Positions 3,247 to 22,190 of a DNA stretch of 26,832 bases are shown in pieces. Each line of letters opens with the position of its first letter. Positions within the stretch are counted from its first letter, which is position 1. The position numbers were made by a program, and so were the translations under genes. The DNA is from a virus: IMG/VR virus record IMGVR_UViG_3300030118_002635, positions 1 to 26,832 of that record; one strand, given 5' to 3'. The notes under the pieces are model-generated. The model did not search any database. It saw only the letters and a program-made list of their open reading frames with translations, and had not been told where the DNA came from.

Positions 3247-3282
3247 TTTGTGCGTTGACAAGCCTTTACGTTGATGTGCTAA
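3247..3282 (+). promoter_or_regulatory. TTTGTGCGTTG motif, putative promoter before terS
   Basis: TTTGTGCGTTG lies at 3247-3257, about 70 bases before terS, and is shared with sites before the capsid and fibre genes. Here it runs into a TTGACA (3255-3260), followed after 16 bases by TGCTAA (3277-3282), a fair sigma-70-like pair. This copy might therefore serve host RNA polymerase as well as any phage polymerase recognising the motif. Promoter activity is inferred. Confidence 0.55.
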
Positions 3283-3324
3283 GAAAGGGGGGAACAAAGA
3301 AGGGGGGTTGATACAGGAGATAAA

Positions 3325-3714
3325 ATGACACAGGGTGCAGTAACACGTTTTAAGCGTGATCTAACAGATCGACAACGTAGATTGGTAGAAGCGTTTGTAG
3401 CAAATGGAGGCAACCTTACACAAGCTGCACATGAGGCAGGATACGCTCAAGGCAATAGCGGTAGAGTTTCAGCATACAAGGCGATGAAAACTGCACATGT
3501 GCGACAGTACTTGATGGAAGCAATGAGTGATGCGTTTGGAATGAATGCAGCTAAAGCATTAGGTAGAGTTGTGCAGTTATCATCTGGGGCTAAGTCAGAG
3601 TATGTGCAGCTTGAAGCCTCGAAGGATCTGTTAGATCGTGCAGGGTTTAAGCCTATAGATCGTTCGCAGGTGCAGGTAGCAGGGGATATTAAAGTGTCGA
3701 TTGACCTAACGTGA
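3325..3714 (+). CDS. terS: Terminase small subunit
   Basis: This 129-residue protein matches the Terminase_2 small-subunit family: residues 14-34 (LTDRQRRLVEAFVANGGNLT then QAAHEAGY) form the typical helix-turn-helix DNA-recognition start, followed by KAMKTAHVRQYLMEAM and a C-terminal segment ending VAGDIKVSIDLT. The small subunit binds the packaging start on concatemeric DNA as an oligomer and hands it to the large subunit. An AGGAG ribosome-binding site precedes the ATG. It is the first rightward gene after the structured junction, and terL lies about 1.3 kb downstream with six tiny genes between, a wider separation than usual. Confidence 0.9.
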   Translation: MTQGAVTRFKRDLTDRQRRLVEAFVANGGNLTQAAHEAGYAQGNSGRVSAYKAMKTAHVRQYLMEAMSDAFGMNAAKALGRVVQLSSGAKSEYVQLEASKDLLDRAGFKPIDRSQVQVAGDIKVSIDLT

Positions 3715-3744
3715 GGGGGGTGGGGTCAAAAACTGCTCTATGTA

Positions 3745-3776
3745 GAGTGACAGTAGTCCTACACTCACATTTTTTT
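3745..3776 (+). terminator. Possible weak intrinsic terminator after terS
   Basis: GAGTG (3745-3749) can pair with CACTC (3762-3766), with a small inner TAG/CTA pairing, followed by a run of seven T at 3770-3776. The stem is short, so read-through into the next genes is likely. A CTCTA-TG-TAGAG palindrome overlaps its left side and competes for pairing. This would lower, not end, expression of the tiny-gene cassette relative to terS. Confidence 0.35.
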
Positions 3777-3793
3777 CTAGAAAGGTACGCAAC

Positions 3794-4063
3794 ATGAGAA
3801 AGATACACAAGAGTCCGTCAGGTGGGTTGACTGCAGCAGGTAGGAAATATTTTAAACGCAAAGAAGGTGCGAATCTTAAACCTCCTGTTCGCAGTGGTAC
3901 AAATCCTCGTAGGGTTTCTTTTGCTGCTAGGTTTGCAGGGATGAAGGGTCCGATGAAAGATGAAAAGGGTAGACCTACAAGAAAAGCTCTGGCATTAAAG
4001 AAGTGGGGGTTTGGTAGTGTAGCAGCAGCTAGGTCATTTGCAGCAAGGAATAAGAAATCATGA
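3794..4063 (+). CDS. Small basic protein, DUF6321-like
   Basis: This 89-residue, strongly basic protein has the segments KSPSGGLTAAGRKYFKRKEG, SFAARFAGMKGPMKDEKGRP and ALALKKWGFGS. I associate this pattern with the DUF6321 family of marine virus proteins; the name is from memory and could be confirmed by a profile search. Function is unknown. High lysine/arginine content suggests nucleic-acid or virion-DNA binding (inference). The ATG follows an AAGG sequence. Its stop overlaps the start of the next gene as ATGA, beginning a chain of coupled tiny genes between terS and terL. Confidence 0.8.
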   Translation: MRKIHKSPSGGLTAAGRKYFKRKEGANLKPPVRSGTNPRRVSFAARFAGMKGPMKDEKGRPTRKALALKKWGFGSVAAARSFAARNKKS

Positions 4064-4233
4064 GTAAGGTTAATCAAGCAGGGGTTTACACAAAGCCTAA
4101 ATTACGTAAGAGTTTATTTCAGTCTATAAAGGCAAGGGCTACTCATGGCACTGCGGCAGGACAATGGTCTGCTCGAAAGGCTCAGTTACTTGCCAAGACT
4201 TATAAGGCTAGAGGTGGAGGCTACAAGTCGTGA
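4060..4233 (+). CDS. 57-residue basic protein
   Basis: This short gene starts at an ATG that overlaps the stop of the upstream gene (ATGA) and ends in a TGA overlapping the GTG of the next (GTGA). It encodes 57 residues, very basic, with the segment GQWSARKAQLLAKTYKARGG, a pattern I recall from small marine phage proteins. The seamless overlaps on both sides and the protein-like composition support it as real despite its length. Function unknown; being basic, it may act with its neighbours on DNA or RNA. Confidence 0.8.
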   Translation: MSKVNQAGVYTKPKLRKSLFQSIKARATHGTAAGQWSARKAQLLAKTYKARGGGYKS

Positions 4234-4469
4234 AAGCTACACAGCGATCATTATTAAACTGGGGCAAACAGAAGTGGAGAACTAAGTCTGGTAAGAAGTC
4301 TAGCGAAACTGGTGAACGCTACCTTCCTTCTAAGGCTATCGCTGCTCTTAGTGATGCTGAGTATCGCGCTACAACCAGAGCAAAACGAGAGGGTAAGGCA
4401 AAGGGTAAGCAGTTTGTGGCTCAACCGAAAAAGATTGCTAACAAGGTAAGGAGATACAGAAATGCCTAA
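4230..4469 (+). CDS. Small basic protein, DUF5872-like
   Basis: This 79-residue basic protein starts with GTG (4230) inside the stop of the gene before it. Segments LLNWGKQKWRTKSGKKSSET, GERYLPSKAIAALSDAEYRA and AQPKKIANKVRRYRN resemble the DUF5872 family (assigned from memory), which is seen in environmental phages and larger viruses. No catalytic motif is visible. The W-x-x-x-x-W-R-T-K-S-G-K start and the GERYLP motif are the conserved core as I know it. Function unknown. Confidence 0.8.
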   Translation: MKATQRSLLNWGKQKWRTKSGKKSSETGERYLPSKAIAALSDAEYRATTRAKREGKAKGKQFVAQPKKIANKVRRYRNA

Positions 4470-4590
4470 TGTTAATGGAAAGAAGTTCCCATATACAAAG
4501 AAGGGAATAGCTGCGGCTAAGAAAGCTGCGGATGAAAAGAAAAAGCCAATGAAGAAAAAGAAAACACTTATGTCAGGAAGCTATAAGTAA
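4462..4590 (+). CDS. 42-residue lysine-rich peptide
   Basis: This gene begins at the ATG at 4462, with AAGGAGA upstream at good spacing, overlaps the end of the previous gene by eight bases, and ends in a TAA that shares its last base with the next ATG (TAATG). The peptide starts MPNVNGKKFPYTKKGIAAAK and continues with a run of lysines (about a third of all residues). Such KFPYTKKGIAAAKKA peptides recur beside terminase genes in marine phages as far as I recall. Probably binds nucleic acid by charge; function unknown. Confidence 0.75.
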   Translation: MPNVNGKKFPYTKKGIAAAKKAADEKKKPMKKKKTLMSGSYK

Positions 4591-4838
4591 TGGCTTTTTA
4601 TTTGACTAGTGGTGAATTGTATACAGGCGAAACTCACGTTCTAGCAGGAACAACTTATACTGGTAAGACAAGAACCCCCGAGTCTCGCAGGTTGGTGGAA
4701 GGGCCAGAACCCAAGAGAGCCAGAAGCTCCAATGGCAGACTCAAAGGCGATGACCCTTCTACACCAGATATAAACGAAGCGTATGCAAAACCCAAGAAGA
4801 AGGCTGCGCCTAAGAGGGTAGAACTAGAGGACGAATGA
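4590..4838 (+). CDS. Hypothetical protein in terS-terL cassette
   Basis: This 82-residue protein has an N-terminal part with a near-repeat, SGELYTGETHVLAG then TTYTGKTRTPESRR, and a C-terminal half rich in proline, lysine and arginine that looks disordered (KPKKKAAPKRVELEDE). No family is recognised with confidence. It is linked to its neighbours by a TAATG junction upstream and an ATGA overlap downstream, which supports expression as part of the same coupled unit. Confidence 0.7.
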   Translation: MAFYLTSGELYTGETHVLAGTTYTGKTRTPESRRLVEGPEPKRARSSNGRLKGDDPSTPDINEAYAKPKKKAAPKRVELEDE

Positions 4839-5029
4839 GTTTTAGTCATTCTATTTCTAAGCATGACCGCGAGTTACTACGCAGAATTGTAAAGAAAGTA
4901 CACCTTCAGCATCACCCTAAAGACTTCCAGACTAACATGGAAGCTGACAAGGTTATTGATGTTATTGCCCCTGATGTGGTCGAGCGTATGCTAAAGTTTG
5001 CGGTGGATCACAAAATTGACAGACTTTAA
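4835..5029 (+). CDS. Hypothetical protein upstream of terL
   Basis: This 64-residue protein is probably all-helical (KHDRELLRRIVKKVHLQHHP then DKVIDVIAPDVVERMLKFAV). It starts in an ATGA overlap with the gene before it and its last bases overlap the start of terL in another frame. The end (APDVVERMLKFAVDHK) is the most protein-like segment. A role with the terminase, such as a packaging accessory, is suggested only by its position. Confidence 0.7.
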   Translation: MSFSHSISKHDRELLRRIVKKVHLQHHPKDFQTNMEADKVIDVIAPDVVERMLKFAVDHKIDRL

Positions 5030-6545
5030 ATACAAACCTGATGGTGAAGTCCTAAAAAAATTTATGAAAGACGATACGTTCTTTCGTGGCATTCGCGGTC
5101 CTGTAGGTTCTGGTAAGTCTGTTGGTTGTTGCGTAGAAGTATTTAGACGAGCTCTTTCTCAAAAGAAAAACGATAGTGGCATACGCAGAAGTCGATGGGC
5201 TATTATAAGAAACACAAACCCACAGCTTAGAACTACAACAATTAAGACTTGGCTTGATTGGTTTCCAGAAAATGAGTGGGGTAAATTTATTTGGTCTGTG
5301 CCTTATACCCATCACATAAAGAAAGGAGACATAGACCTTGAGGTAATCTTCCTTGCTCTTGACCGTCCAGAAGATGTTAAAAAACTATTGTCCCTCGAAC
5401 TAACAGGCATCTGGATTAACGAGGCAAGGGAGATACCCAAAAGTATTATTGATGCTTGTACCATGAGGGTTGGACGATTCCCTTCTATGCGTGAAGGTGG
5501 ACCTAGTTGGACAGGCGTTATTGCAGATACCAACGCGCCAGAAGAAGATCACTGGTGGCCTATTATGTCAGGCGAAGTTCCTATACCAGATCATATTCCT
5601 AGAGATCAGGCTAAAATGTTAGTCAAACCTGATAACTGGGAGTTCTTTACACAACCATCTGGCATGAAAGAAATATACAATGAAGATGGTGAAGTAGAAA
5701 ACTATAAGTCTAATGATGAAGCTGAAAATAAAAAGAACATGCTTCAAAACTATTATACAAATTTAATACAAGGTAAAACAAAGTCTTGGATTGATGTCTA
5801 TGTAATGAATAGGCTTGGTACTATACAAGATGGAAAGCCAGTATATCCTATGTTTGCTAGTGAAACACACATTGCTAAAGAAGAAATACCAGTAGCAGCA
5901 GGTCTGCCTTTATATATTGGTATAGACTTTGGGCTTACTCCTGCGGCTGTTATAGGTCAAAAGGTTAGAAACAGGTGGTTAATTCAATCTGAGGTAGTTG
6001 CTTTTGATATGGGCATCGTTAGATTTGCAGAGGTATTAAGAAATGAAATCGCTACTCGTTTTTCTCAAGCTTCCGATGTGTATATATATGGTGATCCAGC
6101 AGGGGATTTTCGGGCGCAAACGGACGAATCTACCCCTTTTCACATACTTAGAGGTGCTGGTTTACGCGCATTTCCCGCCCCAAGCAATTCTGTGGATCTT
6201 CGCTTGGAGTCAGTGGCTCAACAACTTAACAAGATGGTTGAAGGTAAACCTGCGTTTTTAGTTGATAGACGTTGCTCTCAGCTTATAAAGGGATTTGACG
6301 GTGGCTATGCTTACAAACGCATGGAAGTAAGTGGTGAACGATATGCAGATAAACCTGATAAGAATATGTACTCTCACATACACGATGCACTACAATATTT
6401 AATGTTGGGAGCAGGAGAAGGTCGTGCTTTAATGTCAAACCAAAAACCTGCACAAGTTGTAAATGGCAGAAAAGACTTTGATGTATTTACCAGAAAACCA
6501 AAAAGTTCTGCTAAAAAACCTAGCGTATGGTCACTTGTGCGTTGA
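5016..6545 (+). CDS. terL: Terminase large subunit (packaging ATPase/nuclease)
   Basis: This protein of about 509 residues is the DNA-packaging motor. From the TTG at 5016: Walker A is GPVGSGKS (residues 28-35), the Walker B/catalytic region is TGIWINEARE with E136, and the C-terminal RNase H-like nuclease shows YIGIDFGLTPA (D304), IYGDPAGDF (D360) and HIHDALQYL (D457). All expected catalytic acids are present, so it should be active. No ATG lies near the expected N-terminus. TTG at 5016 has a GGTGGA sequence eight bases upstream and would start LTDFKYKPDGE; TTG at 4998 or ATG at 5064 are alternatives, and a stop at 4992 blocks longer forms. A copy of the TTGTGCGTTG motif covers its stop codon. 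Confidence 0.95.
   Translation: MTDFKYKPDGEVLKKFMKDDTFFRGIRGPVGSGKSVGCCVEVFRRALSQKKNDSGIRRSRWAIIRNTNPQLRTTTIKTWLDWFPENEWGKFIWSVPYTHHIKKGDIDLEVIFLALDRPEDVKKLLSLELTGIWINEAREIPKSIIDACTMRVGRFPSMREGGPSWTGVIADTNAPEEDHWWPIMSGEVPIPDHIPRDQAKMLVKPDNWEFFTQPSGMKEIYNEDGEVENYKSNDEAENKKNMLQNYYTNLIQGKTKSWIDVYVMNRLGTIQDGKPVYPMFASETHIAKEEIPVAAGLPLYIGIDFGLTPAAVIGQKVRNRWLIQSEVVAFDMGIVRFAEVLRNEIATRFSQASDVYIYGDPAGDFRAQTDESTPFHILRGAGLRAFPAPSNSVDLRLESVAQQLNKMVEGKPAFLVDRRCSQLIKGFDGGYAYKRMEVSGERYADKPDKNMYSHIHDALQYLMLGAGEGRALMSNQKPAQVVNGRKDFDVFTRKPKSSAKKPSVWSLVR
6535..6545 (+). promoter_or_regulatory. TTGTGCGTTGA motif, putative promoter before GNAT-portal block
   Basis: TTGTGCGTTGA lies at the very end of terL (its TGA is the last three bases), 33 bases before the acetyltransferase ATG. 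AT-rich sequence follows (AAATTATTTTAAATC). No good sigma-70 -10 is found at the expected distance, so if it is a promoter it more likely serves a phage polymerase or modified host polymerase. Confidence 0.5.
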
Positions 6546-6577
6546 AATTATTTTAAATCTATGTTTTTCAAGGAAAC

Positions 6578-7048
6578 ATGATGAACCGCAAAGCAATATA
6601 TAGACGCGCTGCAAGGGATGATGTTCTCTGTATTTTTGAAATGGCAAGAGACTTTCATGCTGAAAGTGAGTTAAATGACATACCTTTTGACGATGCTGTG
6701 TTTGCTAGGTACTTAGAAGGTCAAATAGAAGATGATATGTCTTGTATATTTGTTGCTGAAGTAAGTGGAGAAAACGTAGGATTTATATTTGGAAGCATAT
6801 ATCAGCTTTACTTTTCTCAAACTTTTGCTGCTAATAGTGACATATGGTATGTAAGACCTGAGTATCGTGGTGGTTTAATAGGCGTTCTATTGCTAAGAAA
6901 CTTTGAGAAGTGGGCAATAGGAAAAGGCGCTAGGTTCTTAGTTAATGGTAGTTCGTCAGGTATATCTTTAGAAAGAACGCATAAATTAATAGAAAGACTT
7001 GGGTATGAATCTGTAGGTTCTGAATACAGGAGAGATTTAAATGGGTAG
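6578..7048 (+). CDS. GNAT-family N-acetyltransferase
   Basis: This 156-residue protein fits the GNAT fold. The acetyl-CoA-binding motif A is DIWYVRPEYRGGLIGVLLLR (residues 88-107), with the R-G-x-x-I-G pyrophosphate loop in a slightly unusual R-G-G-L-I-G form; the preceding strands (SCIFVAEVSGENVGFIFGS) and the C-terminal ERLGYESVGSEYRRD complete the family pattern. It should transfer an acetyl group from acetyl-CoA to an amine; the substrate cannot be told from sequence. AAGGAAA lies before the start and either of two adjacent ATGs (6578, 6581) may be used. Its position between terL and portal suggests late expression. Confidence 0.88.
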   Translation: MMNRKAIYRRAARDDVLCIFEMARDFHAESELNDIPFDDAVFARYLEGQIEDDMSCIFVAEVSGENVGFIFGSIYQLYFSQTFAANSDIWYVRPEYRGGLIGVLLLRNFEKWAIGKGARFLVNGSSSGISLERTHKLIERLGYESVGSEYRRDLNG

Positions 7049-7655
7049 TTGTTTTAAAAAGAAAAACAAAAATGTATCAGTAAAAAAGAAAAAGAGTGGT
7101 TCTGTTACTGCTAAATCTTCTGGTTACTATCCAGAGTTAACAACTTCAGCAGGTCCAGAGTCAGATAAAAGAACCGCTAAAGAAAAATTTGATGCTAACC
7201 CTGCTCGTCAAGCATTTATAAGAGCTAGAGAGAGAAGAAAAAAAAGAAGAAGTAGAGTTACTAATGATGATATTATAACTAATGATGATACTACTAATAC
7301 TAATACTAATACTACTACTACTATTATTGGTGAGGGCATTGGCGATACATCTGTAACTCCAGAAAGTATTTATACCCAAGACCCAAATGATGCTATGGAG
7401 GCACAAGAGCTTTTAGCACAAGATGAATTAAGGCGGCAAAGAATAAAAAGAGCTAGAGCAAAACAATCTTTACTAAGAAAAAGAATAGAAAGAAATAGAG
7501 AAGTAGGTTCTGGACGTAGGGTTTTATCTGGAACTGAAAGAGAATTGAATGTTCAAACTAGACAAGCAGGAACTGGTCGCAGAGGTGGCACAGGTAGAAG
7601 ATCTTTGATTACTGGTTCTACTGGTGGAATCGGATACTATAGTAGGTTCTTATGA
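7041..7655 (+). CDS. Low-complexity basic protein upstream of portal
   Basis: This 204-residue protein starts in an overlap with the acetyltransferase, with AGGAGAG before the ATG, and ends in an ATGA overlap with the portal gene. It is basic and repetitive: a lysine-rich start (MGSCFKKKNKNVSVKKKKSG), an arginine-rich helix (RARERRKKRRSRV), an Asp/Asn/Thr low-complexity stretch around residues 75-97 encoded by GAT/ACT/AAT microsatellite-like DNA, an RRQRIKRARAKQSLLRKRIE helix and a glycine/arginine-rich end. No family is recognised. It may be a minor virion or head-assembly protein given its neighbours. Confidence 0.8.
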   Translation: MGSCFKKKNKNVSVKKKKSGSVTAKSSGYYPELTTSAGPESDKRTAKEKFDANPARQAFIRARERRKKRRSRVTNDDIITNDDTTNTNTNTTTTIIGEGIGDTSVTPESIYTQDPNDAMEAQELLAQDELRRQRIKRARAKQSLLRKRIERNREVGSGRRVLSGTERELNVQTRQAGTGRRGGTGRRSLITGSTGGIGYYSRFL

Positions 7656-9199
7656 TACAAAATTCAAAAAAATATTTAGAAAGATATGAAAAAGCAAAAG
7701 CTCACAGGCAAAACTTTGTTGATCTTTTTGAAGAATGTTATGAATATGCGTTACCCCAACGTGAATCTTTTTACTATGAAACAGCAGGGCAACGCAGGGA
7801 TGATAAAATTTTTGACGAAACAGCAGTAGTTGGTGTTCAAGAGTTTGCATCTAGATTACAGTCAGGTTTAGTTCCTAACTTTGCAAGATGGGCTGATTTA
7901 ACAGCAGGGTCAGAAGTACCAGACTCTGAAAAAGATTTTATTGAAAATGATCTTGATGAAGTAACAGAGTATGTATTTGAGATACTACAAAACTCTAACT
8001 TTTCTCAGGAAGTACATGAAGCATTTATGGATTTAGCAGTAGGTACTGGTGTATTATGTGTGGATGAAGGTGATGCTGTTAACCCTATAATGTTTTCTGC
8101 AATACCATTGCCTCATGTTGTTCTTGATACTGGGCCTGATGATAAGATTGATCATGTTTTTCGAGAACGTAAAAATATTAGAAACTCCGATCTTCCTATA
8201 CTTTATGAAGATGCAAAGTTTGATATGAAGATACAAAATAGGATTGATAGAGATCCAGAAGGCAAATGCACAACTCTTGAGATTATATGCAAAGACTATA
8301 CAAAACGTAATGAAGAGGCTCATCTCTATTATGTAATAGATATGTCTACAAAAGAAACTATTGTAGAAAGAAAGTTTTCTGGTGTTGGTTCTAATCCGTA
8401 TGTATGTTTTAGATGGTCTAAGTGTGCAGGAGAAGTATACGGTAGAGGTCCATTAATAAATGCTTTATCAGCTATAAAAACTACAAACCTTACTATTCAA
8501 CTTATATTAGAAAATGCACAGATGGCTATCTCTGGTATCTATCAAATGGACGATGATGGTATAATAAACCCTGATACTATTAATCTAGTCCCTGGAACTA
8601 TAATACCTAAGTCTCCCCAATCTAATGGACTACAGCCTATACAATCAGCAGGAAGATTTGATGTTGCTGACATAGTTTTAGGTGATATGCGCTTGAATAT
8701 AAAACGTGCATTATACAATGATATGTTAGGAAATCCAGATAAAACTCCTGCATCTGCTACAGAAGTGGCTGAACGTATGGCAGATTTATCACGCAGGATA
8801 GGGTCAGCGTTTGGTAGACTGCAAGCTGAGTTAGTGCAGCCTGTATTGCAAAGAGTTATACACATTCTTAAAAAACAGGGGCGTATTGAAGTGCCTACTG
8901 TTAACGGTAGAGAAGTTAAAATAAGATCTACCTCTCCATTAGCACAGGCTCAATCTAATCAAGATATAACTTCTGTTTCTAGATTTCTTGAATTAGTTAA
9001 TGCGTACTTTGGACCCGAGACTACAAACATATTAATTGACTCAGAAGAAACAGCTATTCACCTTGCTAAAAAATTTGGTGTACCTGACACCTTGATTCGT
9101 GACGCAGAAGAGCGTAGACAGATAGTTGCAATGATGCAGCAAATGCAACAAATGCAACAACAACAACAACAAGCAGGGCCACCTATTGCCGCAGAATAG
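7652..9199 (+). CDS. Portal (head-tail connector) protein
   Basis: This 515-residue protein matches the T7 gp8-type head-to-tail connecting protein family, of normal length. Family-like segments are YEYALPQRESFY near the N-terminus, DETAVVGVQEFASRLQSGLV, the central KCAGEVYGRGPLINALSAIK and the helical NPDKTPASATEVAERMADLS. Portals form a 12-subunit ring at one vertex through which DNA is packaged and ejected. The C-terminus ends in a Met/Gln repeat (MMQQMQQMQQQQQQ), encoded by CAA/CAG-rich DNA, likely a flexible tail inside the crown. It overlaps the upstream gene by ATGA. Confidence 0.95.
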   Translation: MIQNSKKYLERYEKAKAHRQNFVDLFEECYEYALPQRESFYYETAGQRRDDKIFDETAVVGVQEFASRLQSGLVPNFARWADLTAGSEVPDSEKDFIENDLDEVTEYVFEILQNSNFSQEVHEAFMDLAVGTGVLCVDEGDAVNPIMFSAIPLPHVVLDTGPDDKIDHVFRERKNIRNSDLPILYEDAKFDMKIQNRIDRDPEGKCTTLEIICKDYTKRNEEAHLYYVIDMSTKETIVERKFSGVGSNPYVCFRWSKCAGEVYGRGPLINALSAIKTTNLTIQLILENAQMAISGIYQMDDDGIINPDTINLVPGTIIPKSPQSNGLQPIQSAGRFDVADIVLGDMRLNIKRALYNDMLGNPDKTPASATEVAERMADLSRRIGSAFGRLQAELVQPVLQRVIHILKKQGRIEVPTVNGREVKIRSTSPLAQAQSNQDITSVSRFLELVNAYFGPETTNILIDSEETAIHLAKKFGVPDTLIRDAEERRQIVAMMQQMQQMQQQQQQAGPPIAAE

Positions 9200-9449
9200 T
9201 CATATTGGTTTAGACGGAATAGCAAGAAAGAAAACACAAGAAGATAAGATAAGCCTTAACTTTGGCTCTTTATTTTCTCAACCTACTGGTCAAGAAATTC
9301 TTAAATACTTGCGTAGTATAACTATTGAAATGGTAAGTGGTCCTAACATTTCTACTGATGAACTGCGTCATTTAGAAGGTCAACGGTATCTTGTTGGCCT
9401 AATAGAGCGTCATATTCAAAGATCACATAAGGTAAAAAACAATGAGTGA
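9186..9449 (+). CDS. Small Bbp19-like phage protein
   Basis: This 87-residue protein resembles the small Bbp19-type proteins found between portal and scaffold in many podoviruses (assigned from memory): FGSLFSQPTGQEILKYLRS then ELRHLEGQRYLVGLIERHIQ. Its role is unknown. No ATG precedes the conserved part; the frame opens with TTG at 9186, inside the end of the portal gene, so it is probably translated by coupling. It overlaps the scaffold gene by eight bases. Confidence 0.75.
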   Translation: MPQNSHIGLDGIARKKTQEDKISLNFGSLFSQPTGQEILKYLRSITIEMVSGPNISTDELRHLEGQRYLVGLIERHIQRSHKVKNNE

Positions 9450-10194
9450 AGAAGTTCAACAAACAGAAGCAACAACAGAATTACCGCCACAAGAAGAAAG
9501 GGATTTTGTGGTTGCAGAAGATTTAGAAACTAAGACAGAGGAACGCCCTGAGTGGTTGCCAGAAAAATACAAAACAGGTGAGGATTTAGCAAAGGCTTAT
9601 AAAGAACTTGAATCTAAGCTAGGCACTAAAGACGAAGATATTCGTGCTGAATTATTAAAAGAAATAGAAACAGAAAGTTTTAAGGACAGACCGGATAGTG
9701 TAGGTGATTATCAACTTCCTGATTTTATAGATGTAGATAATATTGATACAAATGATGAAACTCTTAAATGGTGGGCAGATCATGCTTTTACTTATGGTTT
9801 TAGCCAAGAAGAATTTGCTGAAGGATTAGAAAAAGTAATGCAAGCACAAGATGCTTATTTACCAGACCCAGAAGAAGAAATAAAAAAACTTGGTGATAAT
9901 GCTAATGTAAGATTAGAAGCTGTTGATTTATTTGCTAGACAGTTTTTTCCAGAAGAATATATGGAGTCTATAGAAGACTTAGCCTCTACGGCAGAAGGAG
10001 TACAGGCTTTAGAATTTATTATGGCCAAGTTGCAATCTCCTGCAATTGGCTCTGATGGTACGCCAGTAGATAGAATTACCGAAGAAGGTCTTAGAGAAAT
10101 GATGGCTGATGAAAAATATTGGCATCCTGCGCGTAGAAATGCAGACTTTATTAAACAGGTTAATGAAGGTTTTCAAAAGCTATATAATCAATAA
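9442..10194 (+). CDS. Capsid scaffolding protein
   Basis: This 250-residue, very acidic protein has the typical phage scaffold start, an acidic disordered leader followed by RPEWLPEKYKTGEDLAKAYK and ELESKLG. The body is helical and the C-terminus has the mixed-charge helix (HPARRNADFIKQVNEGFQKL) expected to touch the capsid shell. Scaffolds guide procapsid assembly and leave before or during DNA packaging. It lies directly before the capsid gene and ahead of a motif-bearing intergenic region, as in T7. Confidence 0.88.
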   Translation: MSEEVQQTEATTELPPQEERDFVVAEDLETKTEERPEWLPEKYKTGEDLAKAYKELESKLGTKDEDIRAELLKEIETESFKDRPDSVGDYQLPDFIDVDNIDTNDETLKWWADHAFTYGFSQEEFAEGLEKVMQAQDAYLPDPEEEIKKLGDNANVRLEAVDLFARQFFPEEYMESIEDLASTAEGVQALEFIMAKLQSPAIGSDGTPVDRITEEGLREMMADEKYWHPARRNADFIKQVNEGFQKLYNQ

Positions 10195-10200
10195 ATTTAA

Positions 10201-10211
10201 TTTGTGCGTTG
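10201..10211 (+). promoter_or_regulatory. TTTGTGCGTTG motif, putative capsid promoter
   Basis: TTTGTGCGTTG begins seven bases after the scaffold stop codon and is followed by very AT-rich DNA (CATTTTAAATAAAATTATTG). It is identical in 11 bases to the copies before terS and the tail fibre. In T7 the phi10 promoter sits at this position, before the capsid gene. Confidence 0.6.
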
Positions 10212-10236
10212 CATTTTAAATAAAATTATTGTTTGA

Positions 10237-10311
10237 ATGGGTCATTACGACCCATATCGCGTTGATCGGCCCTTATTGGATACCCGAATTGATATGTAAG
10301 AGTGGACACTC
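10237..10311 (+). promoter_or_regulatory. Structured 5' leader of the capsid gene
   Basis: The 150-base gap before the capsid gene contains a perfect hairpin ATGGGTC-ATTAC-GACCCAT (10237-10255) and a smaller one GAGT-GGAC-ACTC (10300-10311). The first is not followed by a T-run, so it is not a simple terminator. It would lie at or near the 5' end of a messenger started at the 10201 motif, where stem-loops often stabilise or mark processing of late phage messengers. The capsid start follows an AGGA at 10334-10337. Confidence 0.5.
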
Positions 10312-10345
10312 GTAGCAATCTGAAACTTAATTTAGGACTGTAAAA

Positions 10346-11155
10346 ATGGCTAATACAATAGACCAAGCCTTTATAAAGCAGTTTGAAACTGAAGTTCACA
10401 TGGCGTATCAGCGTATGGGTTCTAAGCTACGGAATACTATTCGCTCTACAAATGTGTCAGGATCAACTGCACGATTCCAGAAAATAGGCACTGGATCAGC
10501 AACAACTAAATCACGCAATGGTAATGTAACTCCAATGGATCTTGCGCATACCAATGTCGAAGTAACAATGAGCGACTTTTACGCTGCTGAGTATATCGAC
10601 AAGCTTGATGAGTTGAAAACAAATATCAACGAGCGACAAGCTGTGGCACAATCTGCTGCTGCTGCTCTTGGTAGAAAAACAGATGAGCTTATCATTACTG
10701 CTATGGACGCAGGTGCTAACTCTACTCAAATACATGATACTGGTTCTGCTCTTGCTAAAGCAGATCTTCTATCATTGTTTGAAACAATGGGTACAGCAGA
10801 TGTTCCAGAAGATGGGCAACGCTATCTTGCAATGTCTCCTGCAGGTTATGCTGATTTGTTTTCAATCACTGAGTTTGCCTCGTCAGACTTTGTTGGTCCG
10901 CAAAACCTACCATTCGCAGGTGGTATGACAATGAAAGAATTCTTGGGCTTCAAGATTTTTTCAACGTCTGCTGTAGCAGGTGGTAAGAATTTTGCTTACC
11001 ATACGAGTGCGATAGGTATTGGTGTGAACTCTGATGTTCAAACTGAAGTAAACTATGTTGCTGAGAAAGTATCTCACTTAGCAACATCAATGATGTCAAT
11101 GGGCGCAGTAGCTATCGATGATAACGGTATCTACGAAGTCCTAGACAATAACTAA
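10346..11155 (+). CDS. Major capsid protein
   Basis: This 269-residue protein forms the icosahedral shell. The start (MANTIDQAFIKQFETEVHMA then YQRMGSKLRNTIR) and the later DELKTNINERQAVAQSAAAA plus LGRKTDELIITAMDAG match a short HK97-fold capsid family (Phage_capsid_2-like, from memory), distinct from the longer T7 gp10 sequence. Position after the scaffold and before a small conserved partner supports the call. Codon use is less AT-rich than neighbouring genes, as expected for the most abundant late protein. It is preceded by its own motif and leader. Confidence 0.93.
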   Translation: MANTIDQAFIKQFETEVHMAYQRMGSKLRNTIRSTNVSGSTARFQKIGTGSATTKSRNGNVTPMDLAHTNVEVTMSDFYAAEYIDKLDELKTNINERQAVAQSAAAALGRKTDELIITAMDAGANSTQIHDTGSALAKADLLSLFETMGTADVPEDGQRYLAMSPAGYADLFSITEFASSDFVGPQNLPFAGGMTMKEFLGFKIFSTSAVAGGKNFAYHTSAIGIGVNSDVQTEVNYVAEKVSHLATSMMSMGAVAIDDNGIYEVLDNN

Positions 11156-11169
11156 GAGGAGGATCTAAA

Positions 11170-11433: not shown

Positions 11434-11435
11434 TA

Positions 11436-11462
11436 GAGTGGGGGCTTTTGCCCCCCTCTTTT
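11436..11462 (+). terminator. Strong intrinsic terminator after capsid block
   Basis: GGGGGC (11440-11445), loop TTTT, GCCCCC (11450-11455), with an additional GAG/CTC pairing outside a bulged T, followed by TTTT. This is a textbook GC stem plus T-run. Its place after the capsid and decoration genes corresponds to the T-phi terminator of T7, separating highly expressed capsid genes from the tail and ejection genes, which must be reached by read-through. Confidence 0.85.
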
Positions 11463-11476
11463 CATAGGGGTTTATA

Positions 11477-14819: not shown

Positions 14820-17800
14820 ATGGGTGTTATTGCAGGAAAAAGACAAGTAGGTAGTATTGGTCCTGTTGGGGTTATTCGACAGCAAAGCAGTAATCAATAC
14901 CAAAGAATAGCTGCTGCTACAAATAAGTTAACAGAATTAGCTATTGGCGAAATGGGTAGGCAAGCTGCTATTAGTGGTGAGCAACTTGCTCAAGAAGAAA
15001 ACATATCAAAAATTACAACTCTTGATCCTATTACAAATAAACCAGAAGCACTTAGTTGGGTAGAAGATAATAGTTTCTTAGGTCGTGTAGGTAAAGAAGC
15101 ATATCAAGAAACAATAGCTAAACGGTTTCAATTTGAAATTGATAATCAGTTAAAAATAAAAGCCAAAGAACTTGCTATAAAATATCAAGATAAAGATGGT
15201 GGCGTAGAGTTATTTAAAGATCAAATGCACCAGTATATTGATAGCATGGCAACTGGTTCTGAAGCTACTGGCTATAGTAATTATATTATGCAGTCAGGTG
15301 TAGCTCTTACAACTACAACAAGCCTTAACCTTATGGACAAGGCGGCAGCAAGAGAAAGAACAAAAACAACTTCTGTAATTGTTACTGGTCTTGAAGATCA
15401 GTTAGATGCATTAGAAACATTAGTATCTAATGGAGATCTTGATAGAGCAGATATTATTAGAAAAGATATAATATCAACTTCAGAAAATGCTTTTGCATCA
15501 AGTCATTTTACAAGAGAAGAGGCTAGGGCTTACAAAAAAGCTGCTGCACTTTCTTATGCAAGAGGTTATCTACGTGATAAATTAGTAGGTTTAAACTCAG
15601 ATCAAATTTCTAATGTTTTAAATTCTTTAGTTAGTGGAAACTATGACAGTTTAAATGAAGAACTTCATGATACAGAAATACAAGTTTTATCAGGTGCGGT
15701 TGAGTTCTTAACAAAAGACATTGAAGTAAATGGCGAAACTATAACAACTGTAGATTATGATGCTATTAAATCATTATCAACTTTTGTTGAAGGTCAGTAT
15801 CAATCTGTAAAACTTGCTGAAGATAGGCGTGCAACTGAGGCTCTTCTTGGTACAACAAAATATGACACAGCTATAAATAATTCTAGAGGTGTTGGCCCAG
15901 AGGTATTAGACTCTTCTGATTTTCCTACTGAAGATTCTAAGATTAATGAACTTAAGAATAGGTATGATGCAACTGAAACTTTATTAAATGATAGAGAATT
16001 AAAAGACCCTGTTCTACGTCAAGGTATTCCTTCTACAGATCAAGAAAAGCTAGACGTTAGAATGAGAATGTCTTTTGGTTTATTAATTCCTGCATATGAG
16101 TGGCTACAAGACAATACAGATTTATCACCACCAGATATAGTAAAAGCATTACAAGAATCCTATGACACAGGTAACACAGGGCGTAACTTTGGAAGCTTTA
16201 TAAAAGGCGATGCTCGTGTAGCTATGGAAGTAATTAAACATCTTAAAGCACAAACAGGTGGTCTTAACGATCCTCAAATGGATGAGTTTATTACAGGTTT
16301 AGGGCAAGTTGATATAAGAAATAGTGAAAAAGCTAAGATTCAAGAAGAAGTTAAAGTTAATGAAACTATTGAGAATTTTATTCTAAATCCAGTAGCTAAC
16401 TATGATGAAGCTATAAAATATATAAATGCATCATCTTTAAGCCAACCTCAAAAGAATGCAAGAACAACAGAGTTAAATGTAGCTAGAGCTAATGTTATTT
16501 TAAATAATGCAATACAAAGAGACTCAAGTATTACTTCAGATAAAATTGTTGATGCAGCAACATATGCAAGTATGGGAATAGAAAAAGAATCTCTTACACC
16601 AGAACTTAAAGCTGCTGTTGATGAATCTAAGGAATATTTAAATGAAGGTCAGATTTCATCATTGCTTTCTACAAAAGCTACTAGACTAAACTCAAGTGAA
16701 TCTGCAGCTAATGTTGGCTCTGCAAAAAGAGAGGCGCAAAACGCAATACTTAGTGGTCAAACATTAGCTAATACTGCATCAAATAAAGAAGCTGCCGAAG
16801 AACTTATTGTTAGTTTTTCTGGTGGTATGAATGCAACAGAGTTTTTTTTAAGTGACCAAACATTTGCAACTAGGCCAGATGGTACACCTCAAAACCCTGC
16901 TGCTCTTGCTCTTATGCAATCAATTCATGCAGGAGTTCTTCCAACAACCTTAAACACTCTACTTAAAAATCTTGCTGATGGAGTGCCGACACAAAATCCA
17001 GATCAGGCACTAAACTTAATAACATTATATAAACAGTTTTCTTCTCAGCCTAAAGGCGGTTTACCTAGTGTAAATATAATATCTCATTTACTTGGAAAAG
17101 AAACATCAGGAAAATTAGAAGCTATAATTACTGCAAGATTAATGACTAATGAATCAGTTAATGAGATTGCAAAAAGATTAGCTGATACAGATTTAGAAGA
17201 AGTTAAACTTAGTATGAAAAGAAAGTTTGGCGATAAGCACAGTAAGCCTGAGTTAACTGTAAATGATTTTGTAGCTTTAGAAGTTCCTGATGCTAAGAAC
17301 AATTCTCAAGCAATAAAAATGCTAGGCTCTTATGCTTTGTATATGGGTTCTCTTGGTATGAGTGCTGACAGTATAGGTGAAAATTTAGAGATTTATTATA
17401 ACAGAATGTTTTCAAATACAGAGGGTTATGTAATAGATGCAGCCTCTGAAAGCGGTCAAAAGTCTAGATATTCTTTTAATCATATTTTTACAGATGCTGA
17501 TGTAAAAAAGTTTTTTGTTGAAAAAGTAAATAAAGAGTTAATGGATATTCTTCCTAACGGTCAATCATTAATGATTTCTACTGACGATAGTCCAGTATCT
17601 AACAGAGCTTATCTTATGCCAATAGGTGTAGATCAGGGTGGTGGAGTTAGGTTTATGGTCGTTATGAATGACAATGGTAATTATATTCCTGTTGTTGGTA
17701 AAGCAGGTTATCCTGTTGGATTTTCTACAGGAGAAAGTGATGTTGTAGATTATGCAAAAAGTATCAATAGAGAAAAATTTATGAACACTTACACACTGCA

Positions 17801-17939
17801 AGAAATCAATGCTATAAGAGAAAGCAAGATAGCAGGTGATGAAATCCAAGAAGGATTATCTACTGATGTAGATGAAGGCTATGTTGTTCCAGAAGAGTAC
17901 CAAGATGTTACTAATCCTCTTATTGGGGCAGGTCAGTAA
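14820..17939 (+). CDS. Internal virion (ejection) protein, gp15-like
   Basis: This 1039-residue protein begins immediately after the preceding stop and ends in a TAATG junction. It is almost entirely helical and hydrophilic, with a start (GKRQVGSIGPVGVIRQQSSN) that I associate with podovirus internal core proteins. It is longer than T7 gp15 (about 750 residues). No enzymatic motif is apparent. In T7, gp15 and gp16 form the core stack and periplasmic tube for DNA ejection; this role is inferred from order. Confidence 0.82.
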   Translation: MGVIAGKRQVGSIGPVGVIRQQSSNQYQRIAAATNKLTELAIGEMGRQAAISGEQLAQEENISKITTLDPITNKPEALSWVEDNSFLGRVGKEAYQETIAKRFQFEIDNQLKIKAKELAIKYQDKDGGVELFKDQMHQYIDSMATGSEATGYSNYIMQSGVALTTTTSLNLMDKAAARERTKTTSVIVTGLEDQLDALETLVSNGDLDRADIIRKDIISTSENAFASSHFTREEARAYKKAAALSYARGYLRDKLVGLNSDQISNVLNSLVSGNYDSLNEELHDTEIQVLSGAVEFLTKDIEVNGETITTVDYDAIKSLSTFVEGQYQSVKLAEDRRATEALLGTTKYDTAINNSRGVGPEVLDSSDFPTEDSKINELKNRYDATETLLNDRELKDPVLRQGIPSTDQEKLDVRMRMSFGLLIPAYEWLQDNTDLSPPDIVKALQESYDTGNTGRNFGSFIKGDARVAMEVIKHLKAQTGGLNDPQMDEFITGLGQVDIRNSEKAKIQEEVKVNETIENFILNPVANYDEAIKYINASSLSQPQKNARTTELNVARANVILNNAIQRDSSITSDKIVDAATYASMGIEKESLTPELKAAVDESKEYLNEGQISSLLSTKATRLNSSESAANVGSAKREAQNAILSGQTLANTASNKEAAEELIVSFSGGMNATEFFLSDQTFATRPDGTPQNPAALALMQSIHAGVLPTTLNTLLKNLADGVPTQNPDQALNLITLYKQFSSQPKGGLPSVNIISHLLGKETSGKLEAIITARLMTNESVNEIAKRLADTDLEEVKLSMKRKFGDKHSKPELTVNDFVALEVPDAKNNSQAIKMLGSYALYMGSLGMSADSIGENLEIYYNRMFSNTEGYVIDAASESGQKSRYSFNHIFTDADVKKFFVEKVNKELMDILPNGQSLMISTDDSPVSNRAYLMPIGVDQGGGVRFMVVMNDNGNYIPVVGKAGYPVGFSTGESDVVDYAKSINREKFMNTYTLQEINAIRESKIAGDEIQEGLSTDVDEGYVVPEEYQDVTNPLIGAGQ

Positions 17940-20900
17940 TGGCAATCAATGTTTTATTTTCTGAAACTCAATTAGGTGCTTTAGATAATTTTAAAGCAGA
18001 AGAAAGAAAGCCTAAGTTTTTTGAACTTGTTGGTGCTCAGTTAGGATACACATATCAACCTATTATTAACCAAGCTAGAAACCAAGCAAGGTTTGGTGAT
18101 GTTGAAATGGATTTTAGTTATGATCCTAGACCAGACATAGAAGGCTATGAAGAATACTTTGATACATTAGTACATGCTAAAAATGCAGAACATATGAGTG
18201 TCCTTAAATCTCAATTATTTGAACTTGAAGATAATAGGGAAACTATGGGGAGAGCAGGGTTCTGGATGAACATGGGAGCAGGGTTTATTGATCCTGTTAA
18301 TCTTGTAGCCTTACCTTTTGGTGGTCCTGCTATTGGAGTTGGAAGATCAGCTGTTAGAGGTGCTGTTGCAGCAGGTACAACACAAGCAGGGCTAGAGTTA
18401 TTAAGAGCTCCTTATGATCCTACTGGTACAGCAGGAGAAGCAGCATTAAACATTGGAGCAACAACTGTATTCGGTGCATTGTTAAATAGTGCAATTAGTA
18501 TTCCATTAACTAGAAGAGCAGCAGCTTATAGAAAGATGGAACAAACTCATAAAGAGTTTCTTGAAGCAGCAGGAGTTTCTGAACAGGTTGGTAAGTTAAC
18601 ACCAGAAGATTTAATTAATGCTCGAGCAAGAGATGAAAGAGCCTTTGCAGGTAAAAGTGCAAAAGACTTAGAGGCTGAAATAAAAGCAAACGAAGGTACG
18701 ATCTTTGGTGTAAATAAAAGAATAGAAGAGATAGATCAATCTTTTAAAGATGATTCTTTTTCTGCAGAAAAGGTTGAAGAATTAATTAAAGAACAAACTG
18801 CTTTATTAAGAATTAAGTCAGAAGCACAAGACTCTATTGATATTGTTAATCGTGAACGTGCTTTGAGAGGTGTAGAAGATGCTAAGATTGCAGGAGTAAA
18901 AGATCCTTATGATATTGCACCTAATTTATTTATTAACAGCCCATTCTTTAAGTTTGTACCAACGCCAATAAAAACTGTATTGCAATCTAAAATGGATAAC
19001 AGTGCTAAGAAAGCAATGCTTATGCTTGGTGGTGATAGTGGTTTACTTCTTAATATGAATAAACTGGGTATATCTATTGGCCCTTCTATATATCAAAAAG
19101 CTAAGATTATGGAGGGAGAATGGGTACAAGTAAATAATAATCTTATTAATCATTGGGCTAATAGTTTGGGCATTAAAGAGCCTAGCAGACCTCTTGGCAT
19201 TAATACAAATGATATTATTGAAAGAAGTGCAAATTTTAAAAACAAAATATTTAAGAAACCACCTAGCGGTAGAAGTTATAGAGAATGGCTAACAGAGGTT
19301 AATCGTAAAAGAGTTAATGGTGTCAAAGATCTTACACCAGAAGAACAGTTAGCTGTTGATGCTATGAATGTATTTTACAAAAGGTGGCAAGATAGGCTTG
19401 AAGAAATAGGTTTACTTGGAAATACATTTAACATTTCAAATAAAATTAGAGTTCAAGAAATAAGATTAAAAAGGTATCAAGAAAAATTAGCTTCTTGGAC
19501 AGAAAAAGAACGAGCAGGTAAATTAGTTGGATGGGCAAAGAAAAATAAAAAAAGCCCTGCTGTTGTTACAAGACTTTACGAAAGAAGAATTACAGAACTT
19601 ACTGCTGCTATAGACGAAAATAGATTATCTCTTGAGAATATTCCCAAAGGAAAACTTCCTGCCAATGAAGATGTGTTTATGCCTAGATATTGGGATATTA
19701 ATAAAATTAAAAAAGACAGAGGGTCTTTAGAAAAGATATTAGTTAATTGGTATAGAGATAATAATACTATTTTTGTAAAACAAAATGGTAAGTTTGTTGC
19801 CAAAAAAATGCCAACTGATGATGATGCTTTAGGCAAAAGAGCAAAAGAAACTGTTGATAATATACTTGGCATTAAAGATATAGTTGATCCAGAACAAATA
19901 GCTTATGGACTTGGTAAGTCTAAACATCTTAGACACAGACAACTAGATATACCTAATCGTTTAGTTTTTGATTTTATTGTTCAAGACCCAATAGCAATTA
20001 TGAAATCATACAGTCACAGAACTGGTGGTGTTTATCAATTTAACAAAGCATTTGGTAATAGAAATATTAAAGAAGTTGTTGAAGATATTGAAGAGCAAAT
20101 GCTGTTAAAGGGTAATAGTCAAAAAGAAATTGATAAATTTAAACTAAACTTTAAGCATATGTATGACAGAATTGTTGGGTCACCTGTTAGAAACTTTGAC
20201 AGATTTGATTTTAAATCAGCCCAAATAATGAAAGACTTAGCATACATGAATTATCTGGGTGCAGCAGGATTTTCTGCTATACCTGATTTTTCTCGTATTG
20301 TTATGGAGCATGAGTTTGGTGATATTCTTAAAGGGCTTCTGTCTGTCTTTGATAAAAATGTTCGTAACTTTAATAGAAAAGAATTAGATGCAATAGCAGA
20401 AGCTATTGAGATTATTCAAGGTTCTGCTCATATAAGATTTACAGACAACATGACAAACAATCCTTTGCAATCTTCAGCTTGGGATACAATGCGAAGTGTT
20501 TACAATGTTGCTAATCTTTTAGGTCCAGTTACTCAAGTAGCAAAAGAATTAGATGGAATTATTCGAGGACATAAATTAGTTCAGCTTTCTAAGCGTTGGG
20601 CAGCTAAAGATCCTAATGATCCTATTAGTGCTCAAGATATACAATACTTAGCTAGATATAATATTACTGAAGAAATAGCTGAAGAGATAGCATCAGCGCC
20701 AGTACAACAAACGGCTAGAGGTTTGTATCTTCCTAATACTTCAGCGTGGGATGGTACTCTTAGATTTCCAGATCATACAGCAAAAATAGTTACTGGTCCT
20801 ACAGGTTTATACAGCAAGAAAACTGGTGATTATGTACCTGCTTACTATGACAATAAAACTAAAAAAATATTTATAGATGAAGAGTATATTCGTACTGAGT

Positions 20901-22165
20901 ATTTTGAATCTAGAGTATGGGCGCAGGATTCTAAAAAGATAGAAGGTGTAAAGGCTTTACCTAAAGGTTTAATTAGAACGCCTGATGATTTAGTTCAGTT
21001 TGTTAAGATGCATGAGATAATGCATAATCTCTACAGTGCCAAAAAATTAGGTACTCTAAAAGATGTAGAGGTTGAAGGTACTGTTTCTAAACGAATTAGA
21101 GTCAAAAAGTTTGATATAGAAAAAAGTTTTGAAGATAATTCAATTATAGAAAGTATGCCTAAAGCAAAACAAGCAGAAGCAAAAAAATTACAAGAAGAAT
21201 ATGAATCTATATATAATGTTCAAGATGATGATAGCGATACTTTTAAGGCTGTCATGCAGTCAAGAATAAAAAAGTTTGAAAGAAAATATAAAAAATTTGT
21301 TAAGTCTTTGCCTAAAACAAGAACTACAAAAATAAAAGGCAAGGTTAAACAAAAAGTAACCGATCAAGCAGCATACGAAAATGCAATTAATGATTTGGCA
21401 ATAAAAGAAATACAATCTCAACCTAGAGTAAGACCAGACACAACTGAAACATTTAGAACTGCTCTTCAAAGCGGAATACTAAATACTGTTATGATGGGTA
21501 CTCCTGCTGATAAACCAATACTTACAGATGGTGTTGTGTATATTCCGCATAGGATAGCAAAAAGATTTGGGTATGAAGAAGATAATATTATTACTGGATA
21601 CTCAAGAGTAGAGTCTGGTATTCTTGGTTTACCATTTCAATTTTTTAGTTATTCACTAGCAGCAATGAATAAAGTAACTGGTGCTTATTCTCAGGGTCAG
21701 ATTAAAAATAGAATGGCAGGAGTTATAACAGCTATGGGATTGGGTTATATGGCTGTTGCTATTAAAAGTAACTTAAGTGCAGGTGGTGCTAGGCAGTGGG
21801 ATGAAATGGCATACTCAGATAGATTTGCTAGAGCATTTGATCAAAGTGGTTTATTAGCTCTTTATTCAGATCTTTTGTATACTTCTATGAATACAAGTAT
21901 GGCTCTTGGCAGAGGTAACTATATGGAGGGTGTTCTTGAGCCTAAGTTCCCTCAAGATGAAGATTATATAGATGCTTTTACTGGTGTTATGGGTGCAGGT
22001 CCAAGCATTGCAGCTGATCTTACAATCAATCCCTTAAGAGATTTTTTAAATGGTGATGCAGGTGAAGGTATGAAAACATTTGCTAGAAGTTTACCGTTTA
22101 TGAGGGTGTGGCTTTGGAAAGGCGACATGAATTCAATGACTCTTGGTTTGTCTAGATCTTTCTAA
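17939..22165 (+). CDS. Large internal virion (ejection) protein, gp16-like, with HExxH motif
   Basis: This 1408-residue protein sits at the gp16 position and has a similar size. Hydrophobic segments occur near residues 100-125 (GFWMNMGAGFIDPVNLVALP) and 165-185 (NIGATTVFGALLNSAISIPL), and again near the C-terminus (MAGVITAMGLGYMAVAIKSN), compatible with membrane insertion on ejection. Unlike T7 gp16, I see no N-terminal lytic transglycosylase motif. Instead H1025-E-I-M-H1029 (FVKMHEIMHNLYSAKKLG) is a zinc-metallopeptidase-type HExxH, within a module preceded by YDNKTKKIFIDEEYIRTEYF. A long lysine-rich helical stretch follows (about 1060-1150). Confidence 0.85.
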   Translation: MAINVLFSETQLGALDNFKAEERKPKFFELVGAQLGYTYQPIINQARNQARFGDVEMDFSYDPRPDIEGYEEYFDTLVHAKNAEHMSVLKSQLFELEDNRETMGRAGFWMNMGAGFIDPVNLVALPFGGPAIGVGRSAVRGAVAAGTTQAGLELLRAPYDPTGTAGEAALNIGATTVFGALLNSAISIPLTRRAAAYRKMEQTHKEFLEAAGVSEQVGKLTPEDLINARARDERAFAGKSAKDLEAEIKANEGTIFGVNKRIEEIDQSFKDDSFSAEKVEELIKEQTALLRIKSEAQDSIDIVNRERALRGVEDAKIAGVKDPYDIAPNLFINSPFFKFVPTPIKTVLQSKMDNSAKKAMLMLGGDSGLLLNMNKLGISIGPSIYQKAKIMEGEWVQVNNNLINHWANSLGIKEPSRPLGINTNDIIERSANFKNKIFKKPPSGRSYREWLTEVNRKRVNGVKDLTPEEQLAVDAMNVFYKRWQDRLEEIGLLGNTFNISNKIRVQEIRLKRYQEKLASWTEKERAGKLVGWAKKNKKSPAVVTRLYERRITELTAAIDENRLSLENIPKGKLPANEDVFMPRYWDINKIKKDRGSLEKILVNWYRDNNTIFVKQNGKFVAKKMPTDDDALGKRAKETVDNILGIKDIVDPEQIAYGLGKSKHLRHRQLDIPNRLVFDFIVQDPIAIMKSYSHRTGGVYQFNKAFGNRNIKEVVEDIEEQMLLKGNSQKEIDKFKLNFKHMYDRIVGSPVRNFDRFDFKSAQIMKDLAYMNYLGAAGFSAIPDFSRIVMEHEFGDILKGLLSVFDKNVRNFNRKELDAIAEAIEIIQGSAHIRFTDNMTNNPLQSSAWDTMRSVYNVANLLGPVTQVAKELDGIIRGHKLVQLSKRWAAKDPNDPISAQDIQYLARYNITEEIAEEIASAPVQQTARGLYLPNTSAWDGTLRFPDHTAKIVTGPTGLYSKKTGDYVPAYYDNKTKKIFIDEEYIRTEYFESRVWAQDSKKIEGVKALPKGLIRTPDDLVQFVKMHEIMHNLYSAKKLGTLKDVEVEGTVSKRIRVKKFDIEKSFEDNSIIESMPKAKQAEAKKLQEEYESIYNVQDDDSDTFKAVMQSRIKKFERKYKKFVKSLPKTRTTKIKGKVKQKVTDQAAYENAINDLAIKEIQSQPRVRPDTTETFRTALQSGILNTVMMGTPADKPILTDGVVYIPHRIAKRFGYEEDNIITGYSRVESGILGLPFQFFSYSLAAMNKVTGAYSQGQIKNRMAGVITAMGLGYMAVAIKSNLSAGGARQWDEMAYSDRFARAFDQSGLLALYSDLLYTSMNTSMALGRGNYMEGVLEPKFPQDEDYIDAFTGVMGAGPSIAADLTINPLRDFLNGDAGEGMKTFARSLPFMRVWLWKGDMNSMTLGLSRSF

Positions 22166-22190
22166 TTTGTGCGTCTTTTTTTGTGCGTTG
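22166..22190 (+). promoter_or_regulatory. Doubled TTTGTGCGT motif before tail fibre
   Basis: Two copies lie 14 bases apart: TTTGTGCGTC at 22166-22175, directly after the stop of the ejection protein, and the full TTTGTGCGTTG at 22180-22190. AT-rich DNA follows (ATAGAAAATATAAAC). T7 has its phi17 promoter at the same place, before the fibre gene. A small ATTTG/CAAAT inverted repeat (22213-22226) lies between the motif and the fibre ribosome-binding site. Confidence 0.6.

Follow-up and report, generated by a model that had tools for sequence, protein, structure and literature searches.

A ten-nucleotide box as a candidate late-promoter element in marine podophages of the T7 supergroup without an RNA polymerase gene

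T7-like phages without an RNA polymerase, such as SIO1, VpV262 and the HTVC010P-type phages, have long been known, and how they switch on their late genes is unsettled. The locus analysed here is a 26,832-base virus fragment (IMG/VR record IMGVR_UViG_3300030118_002635, positions 1 to 26,832; this whole stretch is called the window), in which the ten-letter sequence TTGTGCGTTG precedes the late gene blocks. What is this box, and what reads it? I put the probability at roughly 0.6 that TTGTGCGTTG is a late-promoter box in marine T7-supergroup podophages with no RNA polymerase gene, used by the host polymerase together with a phage HTH activator.

Copies of the box in the window and in related phages

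The window belongs to the T7 supergroup, since a T7-like portal, capsid, tail tubes A and B, internal virion proteins and fibre were recognised by PHROG order. The late genes and the box copies are as follows.

3325..3714, + strand: terminase small subunit (terS), first gene of block 1 (PHROG 2538, E 5e-13)
4998..6545, + strand: terminase large subunit (terL), whose stop codon overlaps the second box (PHROG 2, ORF list)
6578..7048, + strand: GNAT acetyltransferase, first gene of block 2 (PHROG 1249, E 1.5e-29; Pfam Acetyltransf_1)
7652..9199, + strand: portal, or head-tail connector (PHROG 332, E 5.5e-94)
10346..11155, + strand: major capsid protein (PHROG 3437, E 7e-59)
22238..24787, + strand: tail fibre gene, first gene of the window's last block (PHROG 21412, E 7e-58)
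3248..3257, + strand: late box, terS copy, exact 10-mer; ACA comes next, so that a TTGACA overlaps the 3′ end of the box
6535..6544, + strand: late box, post-terL copy, exact 10-mer, overlapping the terL stop codon (terL ends at 6545)
10202..10211, + strand: late box, capsid copy, exact 10-mer, in a gap
22181..22190, + strand: late box, fibre copy, exact 10-mer, in a gap
22167..22176, + strand: partial upstream box TTGTGCGTCT, two mismatches, 14 nt before the fibre box

A preliminary description of this DNA had reported four rightward copies of the 10-mer, located in gaps or at a gene end, each ahead of a gene block and, as judged by eye, with none on the other strand. All of this was borne out. 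Exact TTGTGCGTTG occurs at 3248-3257, 6535-6544, 10202-10211 and 22181-22190, four of four on the + strand and none on the - strand of the window, while 0.04 copies are expected by dinucleotide shuffling and at least four were reached in 0 of 100 shuffles. Three copies lie in gaps, and the one at 6535 shares bases with the terL stop codon; the four precede terS (3325), the acetyltransferase and portal (6578 and 7652), the capsid gene (10346) and the fibre gene (22238). Five late-strand-only 10-mers have at least four copies in the window, and only TTGTGCGTTG has every copy upstream of ORF starts. When two mismatches were allowed, 20 matches were found against 22.6 expected. Thus, a match has weight only if it is exact or nearly so. 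The fifth, partial copy that had been placed at 22166 was found as TTGTGCGTCT at 22167-22176. This partial copy is not random: of 16 distinct fibre sites, 6 have TTGTGC (with at most one mismatch) at a distance of exactly 14 nt on the upstream side of the fibre box, and none has it elsewhere between offsets -20 and -6.

Is the box common in relatives? A portal-based search of IMG/VR gave 80 loci with 74-98% identity; the nearest cultured relatives by portal are Pelagibacter phage EXVC031P Hodr (OQ414635; 62.7% identity) and Methylophilales phage MEP301 (MW452941; 37.2%). In 82 related loci plus the window (884 kb; the loci overlap and are not independent), the exact box was counted 117 times forward and 0 times in reverse, while the reversed control pattern gave 2 and 2. 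Longer contigs usually have three or four copies, which occupy the same four places and, within any one contig, a single strand. The exact box thus keeps to these places in relatives and is never on the opposite strand. The variants TTGTGCATTG and TTGTGAGTTG were accepted at the same places, and 24 distinct terS-class sites were found in relatives with zero or one mismatch. A single variant match in G029, on the strand opposite the late genes, was taken as chance.

Is the box maintained by coding constraints? In the subgroup of the window, the post-terL box and the terL stop codon overlap; in other relatives, the box comes after a TAA or TAG. The capsid box lies within a reading frame as F-V-R-C in 36 distinct relatives, with the codons TTT in 36/36, GTG in 33/36 and CGT in 36/36. 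In the window and in two relatives (L022 and L217), stop codons close the frame at the capsid site, and the 10-mer is intact. A coding explanation of the capsid copy was ruled out by the frozen codons and by the genomes with a broken frame. Thus, selection acts on the DNA.

The capsid and fibre copies had been likened to T7 phi10 and phi17, and their positions are indeed analogous. The accompanying comparison of a terminator with Tphi stood in part. A G/C hairpin (GGGGGC-loop-GCCCCC; 11440..11463, + strand, in window region 11434-11476) was found by a terminator scan in the gap between the capsid and tail-tube genes. A hairpin at the Tphi place is kept in the same gap of nearly all relatives examined and of Hodr, but a good T run is often absent.

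Upstream of the late genes, the divergent early/late gap of the window contains two inverted repeats (2976-2995 / 3059-3078 and 3117-3127 / 3206-3216). They are possibly an origin or a control region for early promoters.

A second element and the promoter geometry

The predicted elements downstream of the boxes, together with one leader feature, are listed below.

3277..3285, + strand: putative -10-like element of the terS copy, TGCTAAGAA, hexamer 3280-3285, predicted start about 3292 (by alignment to relatives with TGCTATNAAT)
6562..6571, + strand: putative -10-like element of the post-terL copy, TGTTTTTCAA, predicted start about 6577 (by column-wise alignment of 59 sites)
10230..10238, + strand: putative -10-like element of the capsid copy, TGTTTGAAT, predicted start about 10245 (by alignment to relatives with TGTTTACAAT)
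22211..22216, + strand: putative weak -10-like element of the fibre copy, TAATTT, predicted start about 22223
10262..10297 (approximate limits), + strand: covarying hairpin region in the capsid-gene leader (37 divergent leaders)

In a class-wise alignment of relatives, the terS copies share TGCTATNAAT and the capsid copies share TGTTTACAAT. Among the 59 aligned post-terL sites, G at offset 28 is nearly invariant, and T-C-T-G/A-T-G is common at offsets 23-28 of the terL copies of relatives, followed by TTA. TA at offsets 30-31 is conserved in the 16 fibre sites. In summary, three of the four classes (terS, terL and capsid) have an extended -10-like TG-n-(n)-TA at 17-19 nt from the box, on its downstream side. 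It had been stated that no -10 is common to all copies; this is true of the window alone, but relatives show a near-fixed element in the terS, terL and capsid classes, the fibre element being weak.

Does the element recur independently of homology? A -10 profile taken from one class found the right offset in another class: from terL to capsid in 10/15 sites (shuffle mean 2.1, maximum 6), from terL to terS in 7/13 (mean 1.9, maximum 6) and from capsid to terS in 8/13 (mean 2.0, maximum 6). The fibre-class element was not confirmed in this cross-class test. I also scanned IMG/VR for TTGTGCGTTG-N13..20-TGTTTA without tying the search to homology. Among the matches listed, family contigs have spacers N16, N17 and N18 in 1, 9 and 72 cases, many of these being capsid sites of common ancestry, while the spacing in unrelated contigs is flat among the matches listed, with 2-7 per spacing.

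Conservation outside the 10-mer is low until the -10-like box at offset 27-37, and the pattern is bipartite. A T7-type promoter, conserved without a break over about 20 bp up to the start site, was not seen, nor was a canonical sigma-70 TTGACA-N16-18-TATAAT. TTGACA is found in the terS class only, 18-19 nt from the -10-like box, and a consensus sigma-70 promoter scan of the window picked up no box copy. A good, well-spaced -35 is mostly absent; only the box-terminal TTG recurs (TTGCAA, TTGAAA, TTGCGT, TTGAGT). Rather, three of the four classes have a conserved box at about -35/-40 with a weak -35 and a -10. In a promoter for a multi-subunit polymerase, this geometry would put the 10-mer at about -44 to -34. 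In three relatives (G004, G005 and L191), 42 nt separate the box start from the fibre ATG, and a sigma-70 start at the box geometry would make a leaderless fibre message. Such messages may be genuine, or they may speak against the geometry at the fibre site.

The capsid leader has a structure of its own. In 37 related leaders (window about 10262-10345), a hairpin around CCC..GGAUA has four covarying pairs (GC/UA/AU etc.) that are 100% paired, with an additional outer CCGU-AUGG stem. It had no match in Rfam and is possibly an undescribed phage leader RNA. Just 3′ of the terS box, a G-rich stretch (GGGGGG..GGGGGG, window 3284-3310) is found, as it is at nearly all terS copies of relatives; it is perhaps a packaging or leader signal.

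Candidates for the polymerase and the regulator

Which enzyme would use such promoters? It had been suggested that a phage RNA polymerase is encoded elsewhere in the genome. This was not supported: a single-subunit RNA polymerase (PF00940) was found in 0 of 24 related records, several of them near-complete, while the T7 control was recovered with E 1e-109. In 14 near-complete relatives, every ORF of at least 320 aa is on the late strand, and those assigned to a family group with virion genes; no early ORF large enough for a single-subunit polymerase (at least 320 aa) was found in these 14 genomes. A phage sigma factor of the T4 gp55, SPO1 or phiEco32 type was also considered and rejected; a Sigma70_r4 search of the 24 records gave only stray region-4 matches of HTH size, in 3/24. 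These three results point to the host RNA polymerase as the likely enzyme of the late genes. The absence of a phage polymerase is strong, not absolute, as some records may be incomplete. The other suggestion, a phage-modified host polymerase, was altered: a phage-encoded regulator working with the host polymerase seems to fit, and the best candidate for it lies inside the window, not outside as had been supposed.

1..249, - strand: 82-aa XRE-type HTH protein, candidate late regulator (Pfam HTH_3, 1.6e-07, above cut-off)
206..487, - strand: 93-aa neighbour of the HTH gene, in 20/21 box-bearing and 2/6 box-less genomes (G002 and G003)

The HTH protein belongs to the XRE/HTH_3 group by both domain and fold. 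Its AlphaFold model has a pLDDT of 87.4, and Foldseek matched the model with HipB, P22 C2 and restriction-modification controller proteins at a probability of 1.00. The XRE-type HTH proteins of box-bearing phages are 67-84 aa in length. I performed phylogenetic profiling of 63 gene families with 21 box-bearing genomes covering the early region and 6 box-less ones. The HTH family ranks first of the 63, being present in 21/21 box-bearing genomes and in 1/6 box-less ones (Hodr, with a distant homologue). The 62 other families fit worse as the regulator, the best rival being present in 16/21. Conversely, the box was found in 31 of the 33 HTH-bearing contigs that extend at least 4 kb into the late side; the remaining L418 and L420 carry ATGTGCGTTG, with one mismatch, at the terS site in the same surroundings, which gives 33/33. 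The box is thus linked in both directions to a phage-encoded DNA-binding protein, the link being a statistical one. No box copy was found near the HTH gene itself. The HTH protein of 1-249 (-) is the best candidate for the box reader, as judged from the genomes compared. XRE proteins usually bind palindromes as dimers, and since the 10-mer is not palindromic, this counts against the HTH protein reading the box.

How independent is this correlation? A tree built from portal, capsid and tail-tube A places the four box-less genomes G002, G003, G028 and G029 within the box-bearing phages. Their grouping with G004, G005 and G007 has a support of 0.972, and the monophyly of the box-less four themselves 0.477. 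Both the box and the HTH gene are absent in this nested clade, whose position indicates one or two joint losses. The correlation between box and HTH gene rests on few independent evolutionary changes. G002 and G003 have short stretches without a box behind terL and ahead of the fibre gene, and TTGAGCGTTG at the capsid site. An early protein of 207-212 aa is common to the box-less four and was found in one box-bearing genome only; it is possibly a replacement regulator or unrelated. A de novo 10-mer search found no convincing replacement late box in the box-less genomes. Hodr has an HTH homologue with 41% identity over 63 aa, yet no box. On the other hand, a 44.8-kb contig (G032) with divergent virion genes has an HTH protein 77% identical to that of the window and boxes at two sites; this gene content marks it as a mosaic genome. 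A search of bacterial genome bins for the host gave six loci, in mixed metagenome bins, and no usable host.

The proposed switch, its rivals and known systems

It is proposed that the early leftward genes, including that of the HTH protein, would be made first by the host polymerase. The HTH protein would then bind the box at about -44 to -34 and recruit the host polymerase to the weak promoters of the four late sites (terS, post-terL, capsid and fibre). Late transcription would start at the TG-n-(n)-TA located 17-19 nt downstream of the box at the terS, terL and capsid promoters. Since these promoters mostly lack a good -35, a phage protein at the box may be needed to recruit the polymerase. 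The half of this model made up of a late promoter box and the host polymerase is well supported; the box has its synteny, strand, near-fixed spacing to a -10-like element and DNA-level conservation in its favour. I infer three things from sequence here, namely the promoter role, the binding of the box by the HTH protein and activation over repression. The HTH protein is taken as the binder because the box and the HTH gene co-occur, and activation is favoured because the -35 and -10 elements are weak. On a more general proposal I would stop just short of even odds: the T7 polymerase and its promoters may have been replaced by a minimal switch, gained and lost as a module, of one XRE activator of 67-84 aa and one non-palindromic 10-bp box per late block.

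Could the HTH protein act in the opposite sense? The box may be an operator, and the XRE protein a repressor silencing the late genes early in infection or in lysogeny. The nearest folds (HipB, P22 C2 and restriction-modification controllers) are mostly repressors, co-occurrence of the box and the HTH gene is equally expected, and the terS copies do have a TTGACA. However, most copies lack a good -35 and the -10s are degenerate, as expected of activated promoters, the box is absent near the HTH gene itself, and no integrase came to notice. Repression is thus unlikely, though worth keeping in view.

It is quite unlikely that the host polymerase works with a host activator or with no special factor, and that the HTH gene merely hitchhikes with the box. 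The box-terminal TTG with the TG-n-(n)-TA does resemble a weak extended -10 promoter, and further early genes partly track the box. Against this, an invariant 10-mer far exceeds the needs of a -35, the box and the HTH gene were lost together in the nested clade, and no other gene family reaches 21/21.

A signal in the nascent late transcript (for processing, antitermination or pausing) would also be strand-specific and upstream of gene blocks, and a clear -10 is lacking in the fibre class. The near-fixed spacing to the -10-like box across three non-homologous site classes, the co-occurrence with a protein of DNA-binding fold and the lack of an Rfam match make such an RNA-level role very improbable. 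That the box is a promoter for a T7-type single-subunit polymerase encoded outside the window is scarcely credible, because the T7-like gene order and promoter positions are outweighed by the PF00940 result (0/24 with a positive T7 control), by the late-strand position of all ORFs of at least 320 aa in the 14 near-complete relatives and by a bipartite conservation with no contiguous block up to the start site.

One abundant marine family thus gains a specific box, a candidate protein and four predicted starts per genome, which makes a testable question. The box and the HTH gene may also serve as sequence markers for recognising late operons in contigs of uncultured phages and for partitioning them.

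Is such a system already known? Among the matches listed, the papers containing TTGTGCGTTG all concern other subjects. In the open-access literature searched, the box, the HTH protein and their use in T7-supergroup phages lacking an RNA polymerase were not found described. Among such phages, SIO1 and VpV262 (PMC6775973) and the HTVC010P-type pelagiphages, e.g. Skadi (PMC10504331), have been reported. For Skadi, use of the host polymerase was proposed, and the promoters reported are sigma-70-like ones only, near DNA replication and manipulation genes (PMC10504331). A repeated late box is absent from the published descriptions of SIO1, VpV262 and the HTVC010P-type phages as far as these were consulted. 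Hodr and MEP301 have virion genes similar to those of the window, but neither has the box, and the HTH homologue is distant in Hodr and absent in MEP301.

The T7 class III promoters (phi10 and phi17; Autographiviridae) resemble the present sites in lying before the capsid and fibre genes, in the hairpin at the Tphi place and in the use of one strand. They differ in that the present phages have no phage RNA polymerase, a bipartite 10-mer with a -10-like box, and extra copies at terS and after terL. Lambda pRE, acted on by CII at the site TTGC-N6-TTGC, is an activator-dependent phage promoter using the host polymerase. Mu C at the late promoters and phi29 p4 at A3 are phage activators that work with the host polymerase (PMC4461284, PMC3100819). 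A phage activator with the host polymerase at late promoters is thus of a known kind (Mu C and phi29 p4, with lambda CII alike). The present model shares with these three a small early phage DNA-binding protein, a box near -35/-40, a degenerate -35 and the host polymerase. In contrast, activation here is a model, TTGTGCGTTG is unlike their sites, the candidate is a short XRE protein of 67-84 aa, and the same box recurs before three or four gene blocks.
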